A stretch of DNA of 64,000 nt from Stenotrophomonas maltophilia. Its GTDB lineage: Bacteria > Pseudomonadota > Gammaproteobacteria > Xanthomonadales > Xanthomonadaceae. A model generated the notes under the pieces. The model did no database searches. It was given only the letters and a program-made list of their open reading frames with translations, and was not told where the DNA came from. Within the stretch, counting starts at the first letter, position 1; every line of letters begins with the position of its first letter. Location of the stretch: the NCBI RefSeq assembly GCF_006974125.1, contig NZ_CP037858.1, forward strand, positions 2,852,001 to 2,916,000, written 5' to 3'. A program made the position numbers and the translations under genes. Below are positions 27,623 through 57,000 of the stretch, in pieces.

Positions 27623-28894
27623 ATGCCGCACGGCCTGCCGCGCAAGATCCGTATCGCCTTCATCCTGCAGGCAGTGCTGGCCAGCCTGGGCATCCTGCTG
27701 GGTGCGTGGCTGGTCTCGCTGGTGATCAAGCACAGCCTGGTCGGTGCCGCCCTGCGCGAGGAGGCGGCGTACTACTGGACGCTGCACGAAGCGTCGCCGG
27801 TGCAGCCACCGCCCAATACCCAGAACATCCGCGGCTACCTGCTGGAAAGCGGGCAGTCGGCACTGTCGTTGCCGGCCAACCTGCGCAATCTGGAGCCCGG
27901 CTTCCACGAACTGCCCAAGGATGACCAGCTGGTGCTCGTCGACGTGCGCCCGGCCGGTCGCCTGTACCTGGTGTTCCTGCGCTCGCGCGCGGAGATGCTG
28001 GCGTTCTGGTTCGGCATCGTGCCGGTGCTGCTGACCCTGCTGGCGGTGTATGGCGCCAGCTGGGTGACCTACCGCGCGTCCAAGCGCCTGGTGTCGCCGG
28101 TGAACTGGCTGGCACGGCGCGTGTCGCGCTGGGACCCGGGGCATCCGGAAGCGGCCGACCTGGAGCCCAACAAGCTGCCCGCCGACATGCAGGGCGAGAC
28201 CCGGCAGCTGGCGGCCGCGCTGCATTCGCTGGCCAACCGGGTCAGCGCGCACGTGGCGCGTGAGCGCAACTTCACCCGCGATGCCAGCCATGAACTGCGT
28301 ACGCCGCTGACCGTCATCCGCGTTGCCAGCGACATGGCACTGGGTGATGAAACCCTGCAGCCGCGCCTGCGCCGCAGCCTGCAGCGCATCCAGCGGGCTG
28401 GCCGCGACATGGAGGCGGTGATCGATGCGTTCCTGATCCTCGCCCGCGAGGCCGACGTCGAACCACAGATCGAGCTGTTCGACGTCAACGACATCGTCCG
28501 CTATGAAGTGGACAACGCCAACGAACTGCTGGGGTCTCGCCCGGTGTCGGTGCACCTGCACAGCGATGGCCCGGTGCAGTTGCATGCGCCGCCGCGGGTG
28601 CTGCAGGTGGTGGTCAGCAACCTGGTGCGCAACGCCTGCAGCTACACCGACGAGGGGCGCATCGACGTGCATGTGCACAACGACCGGGTGGTGGTGCGCG
28701 ATACCGGTATCGGCATGTCGGCCGACGCGCTGTCGCGGGCCTTCGAGCCGTTCTACCGCGCCGAGCCGAGCCGCCCGCAGGGCACCGGCCTGGGCCTGTC
28801 GATCGTACGCCGGCTGTGCGACCGCTTCGGCTGGAAGGTCAGCCTGGCCAGCGAGCCGGGCAAGGGCACCGAGGCCACGGTGATCTTCCGGTAG
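27623..28894 (+). CDS. Sensor histidine kinase, ColS-like
   Basis: Membrane kinase of 423 residues: span 1 at about 8-35, a periplasmic loop of about 95 residues, span 2 at about 130-155, a HAMP-like linker, the H-box RDASHELRTPLTVI (His near residue 223), the N-box NLVRNACSYTDEG, G1 VRDTGIGM and G2 GTGLGLSIVRRL. It should phosphorylate the adjacent ColR-like regulator. The periplasmic loop lacks an obvious metal-binding cluster. The TAG stop lies within a GTAG that begins the downstream repeat region. Confidence 0.9.
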   Translation: MPHGLPRKIRIAFILQAVLASLGILLGAWLVSLVIKHSLVGAALREEAAYYWTLHEASPVQPPPNTQNIRGYLLESGQSALSLPANLRNLEPGFHELPKDDQLVLVDVRPAGRLYLVFLRSRAEMLAFWFGIVPVLLTLLAVYGASWVTYRASKRLVSPVNWLARRVSRWDPGHPEAADLEPNKLPADMQGETRQLAAALHSLANRVSAHVARERNFTRDASHELRTPLTVIRVASDMALGDETLQPRLRRSLQRIQRAGRDMEAVIDAFLILAREADVEPQIELFDVNDIVRYEVDNANELLGSRPVSVHLHSDGPVQLHAPPRVLQVVVSNLVRNACSYTDEGRIDVHVHNDRVVVRDTGIGMSADALSRAFEPFYRAEPSRPQGTGLGLSIVRRLCDRFGWKVSLASEPGKGTEATVIFR

Positions 28895-28898
28895 AGGG

Positions 28899-29081
28899 AT
28901 TTTGCCGGGCTGCGCCCGGCACCCGCCGAGGCAACATCAAAAGCGGGCATTCCGTGGAATGGCGGGGCGGTGTGGGTTTGCAGGACACGCCGTAAACCCG
29001 TCCATGGGGGCTCGATGGCGCCATCCATGGCGCCAACGGTCCTGCAAACCCACACCGCCCCGCCTTCGACAGTTTCCCGCG
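28899..29081 (+). repeat. Structured palindromic element, copy A
   Basis: In order: a leader hairpin (TGCCGGGC 28903-28910, TGC loop, GCCCGGCA 28914-28921), a linker with CAACATCAAAAGC, a perfect 26-bp outer stem (28961-28986 with 29039-29064), a 52-base interior that can form two hairpins (CCC-GTCCAT-GGG with a five-base GTAAA bulge and an outer GCC/GGC; GGCGCC-ATCCAT-GGCGCC), and the tail TTCGACAGTTTCCCGCG. It fills the gap between the kinase and the SGNH hydrolase gene. Four relatives are at 32.6, 32.9, 56.5 and 56.9 kb. Function unknown. Confidence 0.8.
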
Positions 29082-32607: not shown

Positions 32608-32797
32608 TTCCGGCAGGGCTTGCAGCCCTGCACCCGCTGCAATCAACGTCAACGGCAAAAGCCTGCATTCCGTGAGTTGGCGGGGTGGGTCCGGTTGAGG
32701 GGGGCGCTGCAAGTACGTCCATGTAAGCTCGGTCGCCGCATCCATGCGGCTCACGCCCCCTCAACCGGACCCACCCCGCCTTCGACAGTTTCCCGCG
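32608..32797 (+). repeat. Structured palindromic element, copy C
   Basis: Leader hairpin GCAGGGCT (32613-32620), TGC loop, AGCCCTGC; linker with CAACGTCAACGGCAAAAGC; outer stem 32679-32706 with 32754-32780 (one extra G on the left); interior hairpins GCT-gcaag-TAC-GTCCAT-GTA-AGC and GCCGC-ATCCAT-GCGGC; tail TTCGACAGTTTCCCGCG. The arms differ in sequence from copy A but pair equally well. It faces copy E tail to tail. Confidence 0.8.
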
Positions 32798-32902: not shown

Positions 32903-33022
32903 GCGCAGGAAATTGTCTGTGGCCGGGCGGGTGGGCGTGGCGGGGGTATCCGCGCCATGGATGGCGCGGCTAAGCCTCCAGGGACGGATTCACGGCGTCC
33001 CCCGCCATGCCCACCCGCCCGG
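32903..33022 (-). repeat. Structured palindromic element, copy E
   Basis: Read on the minus strand: outer stem 33022-32997 with 32948-32923 (26 positions, one G-T type wobble and a frayed inner end), a 48-base interior with GCC-gtgaa-TCC-GTCCCT-GGA-GGC and CCGCGCC-ATCCAT-GGCGCGG hairpins, and a divergent tail CAGACAATTTCCTGCG. I see no clear leader hairpin. The rest of the 32597-33134 gap holds only the lemA leader. Confidence 0.75.
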
Positions 33023-55287: not shown

Positions 55288-55363
55288 GAGTCGGCGAAAA
55301 GAAAGGCAGAAAGACCAACAGTCTAGCGCGTACGGGGCAGGGCTGCCCGGTGGGGTGTGGGGA

Positions 55364-55470
55364 TGCCGGCCAGCGGCCGGCACTACCCACCCATCTTCCG
55401 GTAGCGCCGGCCGCAGGCCGGCGGAACGTGGATCGACGTACAGTTGGGTAGTGCCGGCCGCTGGCCGGCA
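55364..55470. repeat. Three SMAG copies upstream of glnS
   Basis: A reverse copy ending CTAC (55382-55385), a forward copy starting GTAG (55401-55404) and another forward copy starting GTAG (55448-55451), all with GCCGGC-based stems. They lie between the divergent glnS and DUF2007 genes, so they are in the shared promoter region, unlike most copies here. Confidence 0.85.
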
Positions 55471-56508: not shown

Positions 56509-56700
56509 GCGGTGGTCCGCCTGCGGCGGGCAACGTCAACATCAACATCCAAAGCGGCTCTGGGTTGCTGATGGTTGGGCGGGACGGGGGCGGCTGGCAG
56601 GACACGCCGTAAACCCATCCCTGGGGGCTCGATGGCGCCATCCATGGCGCCAACGGTCCTACCAGCCGCCCCCGTCCCACCTTCGACAGTTTCCCGGTGA
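56509..56700 (+). repeat. Structured palindromic element, copy B
   Basis: Leader hairpin TCCGCC-TGC-GGCGGG (56516-56530); linker CAACGTCAACATCAAC; outer 26-position stem (56578-56603 with 56656-56681; two wobble-type mismatches); a 52-base interior differing from copy A at only two positions; tail TTCGACAGTTTCCCGG. Relative to copy A, six stem positions differ and all six are compensated on the other arm. The remaining part of the 56506-57067 gap holds a terminator, a SMAG copy and element D. Confidence 0.8.
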
Positions 56701-56746: not shown

Positions 56747-56771
56747 AGGACGCGGCTTTCGCCGCGTCCTT
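56747..56771 (+). terminator. Rho-independent terminator
   Basis: An 11-bp stem (AAGGACGCGGC with GCCGCGTCCTT) and TTTC loop, followed by an unbroken run of T. It is the textbook terminator for msrA, placed after structured element B, so B would be part of the msrA transcript as a 3-prime UTR. Confidence 0.93.
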
Positions 56772-56797
56772 TTTTTTTTGATGCTGCAGTGCCGTCT

Positions 56798-56880: not shown

Positions 56881-57000
56881 GCAGGAAACTGTCGAAGGCA
56901 GGGTGGGTAGGCCGTGCAGGGGCGTGAGCCGCATGGATGCGGCGACCGAGCTTACAGGGACGTACTTGCAGCGTCCCCTGCACGGCCTACCCACCCTGCC
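56881..57000 (-). repeat. Structured palindromic element, copy D
   Basis: Read on the minus strand: perfect 26-bp outer stem (57000-56975 with 56922-56897), a 52-base interior with GCT-gcaag-TAC-GTCCCT-GTA-AGC and GCCGC-ATCCAT-GCGGC hairpins, tail TTCGACAGTTTCCTGC. Upstream of the stem only AGCGGGTCAT is shared with copy A. It lies 67 bases after the tal stop on the tal strand, so it would be transcribed as the tal 3-prime UTR. Confidence 0.8.

Follow-up and report, generated by a model that had tools for sequence, protein, structure and literature searches.

Dispersed two-hairpin repeats of Stenotrophomonas related to the TwoAYGGAY RNA family as putative RsmA-binding modules

A 64,000-nucleotide stretch of a Stenotrophomonas maltophilia genome, here called the window, contains five copies (A–E) of a large element in which a long outer stem encloses two hairpins and in which the arms differ between copies with the changes matched on both sides. 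The locus raises the question of what such a structure is kept for, and on which strand. An earlier note had described five copies with one architecture, and all five are present and fold as claimed. Using a loop-anchored parser, we obtained cores of 98–104 nt with outer stems of 23–26 pairs. The proposed outer stem of about 26 bp is exact for A and D (26 pairs each), while B, C, and E have 23, 25, and 24 pairs, respectively; the interior of 52 nt, claimed for A, B, and D, is found there and also in C and E (5/5). Watson–Crick pairs make up 26/26, 22/23, 25/25, 26/26, and 23/24 of the outer pairs in A, B, C, D, and E (122/124 in total), and both mismatches, a single C.A in B and a single A.C in E, become U.G and G.U, respectively, on the opposite strand, on which the loops contain GGA (hereafter, the GGA strand). 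Between the outer stems of A and B, the six compensated differences noted earlier are accompanied by a seventh, one-sided change, detected by eye, which is the C.A mismatch in B. In a shuffle-based folding test of copies A, C, and D, z-scores against 200 dinucleotide shuffles were −8.6, −5.9, and −7.2, respectively, and no shuffle folded equally well.

The core of copy A occupies positions 28961..29064 with the GGA strand on the minus strand, and its outer stem (28961–28986 paired with 29039–29064) encloses the 52-nt interior. Within it, hairpin A (29017..29034, minus strand) has a 6-bp stem and the loop C-AUGGAU-G (ATCCAT on the plus strand, 29023–29028), and hairpin B (28989..29011, minus strand) consists of 3 bp, a five-base bulge (UUUAC on the minus strand), 3 bp, and the loop C-AUGGAC-G (GTCCAT on the plus strand, 29000–29005). 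On the plus strand, a leader hairpin, TGCCGGGC-TGC-GCCCGGCA (28903..28921), lies 8 nt past the stop codon (28892–28894) of an ORF that is histidine kinase-like by eye, and the tail TTCGACAGTTTCCCGCG (29065..29081) adjoins the outer stem. A common tail had been ascribed to all copies; that of E has diverged (CACAGACAATTTCCTG). The remaining copies form two tail-to-tail pairs. In the C/E pair, the plus member C has its core at 32679..32780 (GGA strand minus) and the minus member E at 32923..33022 (GGA strand plus); in the B/D pair, the plus member B has its core at 56581..56678 (GGA strand minus) and the minus member D at 56897..57000 (GGA strand plus). A hairpin followed by a T-run, intrinsic-terminator-like by eye, lies between B and D (56750..56779, plus strand). 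A sixth, weak match at 55350–55437 scored 22 bits with the covariance model described below.

A covariance-model search, as suggested in the earlier note, was carried out with a model built from 25 copies (designated as R1). It recovered at least 148 copies in the genome of the window at E ≤ 0.01, a lower bound from scoring 150 of 4438 candidates, along with relatives elsewhere. In the genus, copies were found in at least 49 of 61 genomes and none in 12 (E ≤ 1e-4, 55 candidates scored per genome); in the family, at least 76 of 247 genomes and 17 of 54 genera gave matches (E ≤ 1e-6, 13 candidates scored per genome); and in the order, relatives occurred in at least 55 of 200 genomes and 21 of 69 genera, three other families included (16 candidates scored). 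Draft contigs of four loci (L119, L120, L125, and L131) end within a copy of the C/E pair, and long hairpins may break assemblies so that copy numbers from drafts are too low. A TerC 92% identical to that of the window, with relatives of the same neighbor genes beside it, is found in JAHREJ010000004.1, a record that bears the title Bacillus subtilis SK7B5 and is probably a mislabeled or mixed assembly.

Conservation of the structure was examined in the 148 aligned copies of the genome of the window. In this alignment, 98.3% of cells pair, compared with 76.6% when the 3' letters are shuffled, and changes on both sides occur at 34 of the 39 pairs vs. 22.6 in the shuffles, a comparison that ignores relatedness and uses an alignment fitted to the model, which favors structure. 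With partners slid by 1–3 columns, 38–50% of cells pair, and single-sided stem changes are rare. Outside the genome of the window, 88 elements of the genus and family keep outer stems of 20–36 positions paired, 84 of them with an interior of 52 or 53 nt, and the arm sequences of different genera look unrelated by eye. With 34 of 39 pairs changed on both sides, the earlier proposal that the matched changes mark a family under selection on structure is still the best reading. Conversion among copies of an already named repeat, which had been set against that proposal, accords with part of the pattern, in that interiors reassort among copies and the arms at the C/E site vary blockwise between strains (both by eye), but these processes alone do not explain the loop rule and the strand asymmetry described below. 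Two single copies, L042:4501-4632 and L046:4501-4632, carry four and five A.C mismatches, respectively, a pattern suggestive of repeated hits to one strand.

The earlier note knew of no named family of this shape, a statement that no longer stands: the minus strand of copy A scores 44.3 bits against RF01731, TwoAYGGAY, above the gathering threshold of 43 (E 2e-6, with lax filters on a short stretch). The alignment (28954–29071, minus strand) spans both AUGGA loops, the UUUAC bulge, and the closing CGG..CGU. A fast Rfam scan of the whole window gave no gathering match and missed copy A, and a 39-kb scan including copy A likewise missed it. At E ≤ 0.1, RF01731 matched none of B, C, D, and E, and even at E ≤ 10 it did not match B on its own, despite an interior nearly that of A. 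In the genome of the window, RF01731 matched at least 10 places at E ≤ 0.01, one of them above threshold (105 of 275 candidates scored), and the 10 matches all fall on R1 copies, on the strand opposite to R1. Copy A is a TwoAYGGAY member by the Rfam rule, and B–E belong only by homology to A. No CsrB, CsrC, or Rsm family of Rfam was found in the window at gathering thresholds or among 20 matches of copy A at E ≤ 5; we put the sub-threshold hits to microRNA families, C4, and Ysr224 down to chance resemblance with a long hairpin. In a Stenotrophomonas genome with no R1 match (G004), two near-alike RF01731-like repeats (L378:473-542 and L379:469-535; 37.4 and 36.5 bits, below threshold) have arms and flanks unlike those of R1 copies and the loops CATGGATG and CAGGGACG/CAGGGATG; they may be a further dispersed family in which the same loops recur. 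In two genomes of other families (L381 in G314 and L382 in G304), several RF01731 matches cluster within a few kilobases, with CGCCAGGGATGGCG and CAGGA-loop hairpins.

Which strand works can be judged from the mismatches. On the strand first read, A.C mismatches are frequent and G-U pairs almost absent (64 vs. 9); a DNA-only reading drawn from the missing G-U pairs was overturned once A.C was counted against G.T. With a strand-neutral parser, the G.U to A.C ratio on the GGA strand is 49:7 in the genome of the window (124 elements), 32:4 at other loci of the genus (62 elements), 70:9 in other genera (66 elements), and 13:2 in other families (16 elements). Counted per element, the outer stem has a G.U majority on this strand in 112 and an A.C majority in 12, although these include some orthologues and are not all independent, so that a sign test is optimistic. 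The control hairpins gave 26:18 (GTAG-tagged hairpins, on the GTAG strand) and 1:2 (leader hairpins, on the GGA strand). The excess has the same direction, with different size, in both replication orientations (48:4 and 16:5), and by the strand of the upstream gene it is 39:3 (same), 13:5 (opposite), and 12:1 (far). Unpaired columns, which are few and partly constrained, show G>A at 24/592 and C>T at 14/1163, in the same direction, and part of the G.U excess may reflect mutation bias; as the whole source of the asymmetry, such bias was rejected, the excess persisting in both replication classes. The remainder we read as selection on the folded RNA, or single-stranded DNA, of the GGA strand. 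Since both the wobble pattern and the GGA loops lie there, the working strand is probably the complement of the one read first.

A CsrA/RsmA site has the form A-N-G-G-A-N closed by C-G, and the repeats of CsrB are CAGGAUG. On the GGA strand, both hairpins carry a loop of this type, C-ANGGAN-G with N free. In the columns of the R1 model, CANGGANG is present in 136/144 and 140/144 copies of the genome of the window for the two hairpins (144 of 148 rows after removal of overlaps and repeats), in 76/86 and 83/86 copies of other genera (from 141 rows), and in 27/28 and 22/28 copies of other families (from 31 rows); R1 was built from copies with such loops, and the free N is not imposed by the model. 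TCC/GGA is nearly invariant in both loops, and in the other-family set each hairpin has all four bases represented at N. The second base of the hairpin B loop is often G or A, hence not Y, and the rule here is ANGGAN. Exceptions include shorter loops of the CAGGA type and loops enlarged by insertion. At L078:5595-5807 and L090:13228-13438, one loop is enlarged by an insert of about 80 nt that contributes further hairpins, their loops being CAGGACG and of the CAGGA type, and a different insert in the other hairpin of four further copies, which were folded (L037, L052, L066, and L091), adds no such loops. A CsrA-family gene is present in all 20 genomes tested, some of which lack R1 copies; its presence where R1 found no copy counts against reading the elements as RsmA modules.

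The copies are arranged in a regular manner. In the genome of the window, all 51 neighbor pairs less than 1.5 kb apart are tail-to-tail, and the plus-then-minus order is likewise the common one across other genera and families, where arrays and at least one plus–plus neighbor (G460:C100) occur. One locus of another genus (L217:1048-1927 in G123) holds three consecutive tail-to-tail pairs within 900 bp. Partners tend to be unlike: with arm classes a, b, and c, assigned by eye after the sequences had been read, class a is paired with b in 25/50 pairs vs. 13.6 in shuffles (0/2000 as high), and a–a or b–b occurs in 7/50 vs. 15.1 (1/2000 as low). A class-free measure is weaker and points the same way, partner arm identity averaging 0.598 vs. 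0.637 (sd 0.015), and partners with arm identity of at least 0.9 make up 1/50 pairs vs. 3.7 expected. This dissimilarity would be expected if each copy has to fold alone. With respect to genes, as called by a home-made gene caller, none of the 148 copies overlaps a called gene; 94 have a same-strand upstream gene, and in 82 of these the model starts 16–145 nt past its stop codon. Convergent gaps are enriched (21/48 singles and 17/50 pairs vs. 41/300 copy-free gaps) and divergent gaps depleted (4/48 and 6/50 vs. 75/300). Single copies in tandem gaps show no orientation bias (12 sense vs. 11 antisense), and the flanking gene points into the element on the tail side in 32/48 and on the leader side in 33/48 (added by hand); no preference of the GGA sense relative to genes was seen among the 48 single copies.

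Comparison of sites between strains, which the earlier note had proposed as a check for mobility, revealed presence/absence polymorphism where copy A lies: L119, L136, and L137 carry an intact element and L126 one with an internal deletion, remnants are left in L121 and L133, and L120 and L129 are among those that lack it. The gap between tdh and kbl (genes named by NCBIfam) holds an element in few-copy genomes of three genera. A kbl search of 30 genomes resolved an adjacent tdh-kbl gap in 18, with an element in 10 of these by eye, and left 12 genomes not resolved; of the ten elements, five lie in each orientation and one is decayed, and in L320, L325, and L330 the gap is just 11–14 nt (11, 13, and 14). 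Because the arms look alike across both orientations, the interior has probably been inverted in place between species. A second shared site lies downstream of dapD. With both orientations present at tdh-kbl, the mRNA there lacks the GGA loops in half of these species; together with the lack of orientation preference among single copies, this is the main argument against the element acting simply within the host mRNA, and it keeps mobile DNA in contention.

Several other explanations deserve weighing. Neutral palindromes, in which template switching and gene conversion copy arm onto arm and produce covariation without selection, would account for the blockwise differences between strains at the same site, for the reassortment of interiors and arms, and for the rarity of one-sided changes, yet we give them little credence: they leave unexplained the nearly invariant TCC/GGA of the loops, the strand asymmetry, and the near-constant interior length (52 or 53 nt for 84 of the 88 elements from other genomes). 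Equally hard to sustain is that the element, in the orientation first read, forms the 3'-end hairpin of the upstream gene, as a terminator, processing site, or exonuclease barrier. Its position past same-strand stop codons, free of gene overlap, and the enrichment of convergent gaps speak for such a role; the G.U pattern, however, sits on the other strand, and the single copies of tandem gaps are divided almost evenly between sense and antisense. Intrinsic terminators, moreover, are commoner, not rarer, in gaps with copies (gap length uncorrected), and the element as an intrinsic terminator is thus unsupported.

The main rival, which we also consider unlikely although less so than the two preceding ideas, is that the elements are non-autonomous, REP/REPIN-like mobile DNA whose single-stranded form is transferred by an HUH (Y1) or other enzyme specific for the bulge, stem, and loops on one strand, with the structure kept for mobility and not for any host role. 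Such DNA would be expected to show the high copy number, the distribution over at least 49 of the 61 genus genomes, the site polymorphism between strains, and the short tdh-kbl gaps of relatives; the tail-to-tail pairs (51/51 in the genome of the window) show a preference for unlike partners, as reported for REP dimers (PMC3733652), and the strand asymmetry fits, since G.T wobbles form in DNA too. On the other hand, the three Y1 transposase genes found in the genome of the window lie 5–12 kb from the nearest R1 copies and carry SMAG or other repeats; no clear target duplication was found, one locus pair (L145 vs. L142) fitting a 3-bp duplication or a deletion equally well; copy A matched nothing among 72,556 records of plasmids and 50,697 of phages, a weak test given that one copy served as the query and arms vary; and a CsrA loop rule with free N would be a coincidence.

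We favor, with a probability of roughly 0.57, the reading that the copies are TwoAYGGAY-type RsmA-binding RNA modules that have been spread and paired in a REP-like manner. Each copy would be a structured RNA module read from the strand opposite to the one first read, whose long outer stem presents two hairpins, each with a C-ANGGAN-G loop of the RsmA/CsrA site type, and the two loops of one copy could hold one RsmA dimer. Transcripts running through gene ends by read-through from neighbors would thereby carry landing or decoy sites for RsmA. The tail-to-tail geometry would place one copy in the right sense toward either side, and pair neighbors would stay unlike so that each folds alone. If only the loops and the existence of a stem matter, arm sequences could drift by matched changes or by block exchange between copies.

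A more tentative extension, which we regard as possible rather than probable, is that the family constitutes a distributed RsmA sponge: about 150 two-site decoys (about 300 loops), spread over gene ends by a mobile route in place of one or two dedicated decoy RNAs, would titrate RsmA, the free level of which would be set by genome-wide gene-end transcription, and the palindromic arms would let the cassette invert in place. In that event, the in-place inversion suggested at tdh-kbl between species would switch an mRNA between forms with and without RsmA sites. If the RsmA-binding reading is true, REP-like repeats and CsrA regulation would be joined, dispersed palindromes would be protein-binding modules and not structural litter, and these modules would link a global regulator to gene-end transcription. 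TwoAYGGAY was published in 2010 (Weinberg et al.) as a probable RNA, probably not cis-regulatory and without a function, and listed for human gut, γ-Proteobacteria, and Clostridiales (PMC2864571), and its binding and sequestration of CsrA were proposed from motif matches in 2014 (PMC4333381); the type assigned to RF01731 in Rfam is Cis-reg. Hundreds of natural variants, in genomes that have a CsrA-family protein and with the strand indicated by wobble pairs, make the CsrA-binding prediction directly testable.

Among known systems, sRNAs of the CsrB/RsmZ type each carry several loops and are encoded by one or a few genes. They share with the window family GGA in hairpin loops and paired sites; the window family differs in comprising at least 148 two-loop modules, with no promoter of their own recognized by eye. 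REP/SMAG repeats and REPINs of Stenotrophomonas are alike in high copy number, extragenic location, and inverted pairs of unlike partners (PMC3733652, PMC2613905). In contrast to these, the window family has a core of about 100 nt with two inner hairpins and, in its own genome, no adjacent Y1 transposase gene. The rule applied for REPs, a terminal GTAG/CGTC tag and 20–40 bp, does not describe the cores of 98–104 nt, and by eye no such tag terminates the copies examined among the matches listed; GTAG repeats adjoin many elements as a separate family. An origin as the terminal repeat of a TIRYT transposase (PMC3733652) was rejected, as the sole TIRYT-like locus (L031) has unrelated GGGGACGGAGGGG repeats; at this locus (G000:C1:2317406-2317738), a Y1 transposase match is flanked by 39-nt inverted repeats (AAAAGGGGACGGAGGGGATTAAGTCG...), like S. 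maltophilia TIRYT elements.

A precedent for an RsmA-binding RNA from a 3' untranslated region exists in a related genus: RsmU of Xanthomonas campestris, which is described as a single locus, still bound RsmA when all four of its GGAs were changed, and is likened here by description, not by sequence (PMC7694677). The closest system is TwoAYGGAY itself, which has the same outer stem enclosing two hairpins, GGA hexaloops closed by C-G, and a UUUAC-like bulge in the second hairpin. The differences are that its Rfam model finds few of the copies (at least 10 at E ≤ 0.01, one above threshold, vs. at least 148) and that the window family allows any base at N and has widely variable arms (median 25–31 bp) in a dispersed, high-copy form. 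Passages searched in the literature on intrastrand triplexes, stem-loop families, and RepRanger do not mention these repeats for Stenotrophomonas or Xanthomonas, and in a search of mainly open-access literature, we found no report of TwoAYGGAY dispersed in this order as a gene-end repeat, tail-to-tail with unlike arms. Hence, the named family existed already, and what looks new is its form as a high-copy gene-end repeat in this bacterial group.
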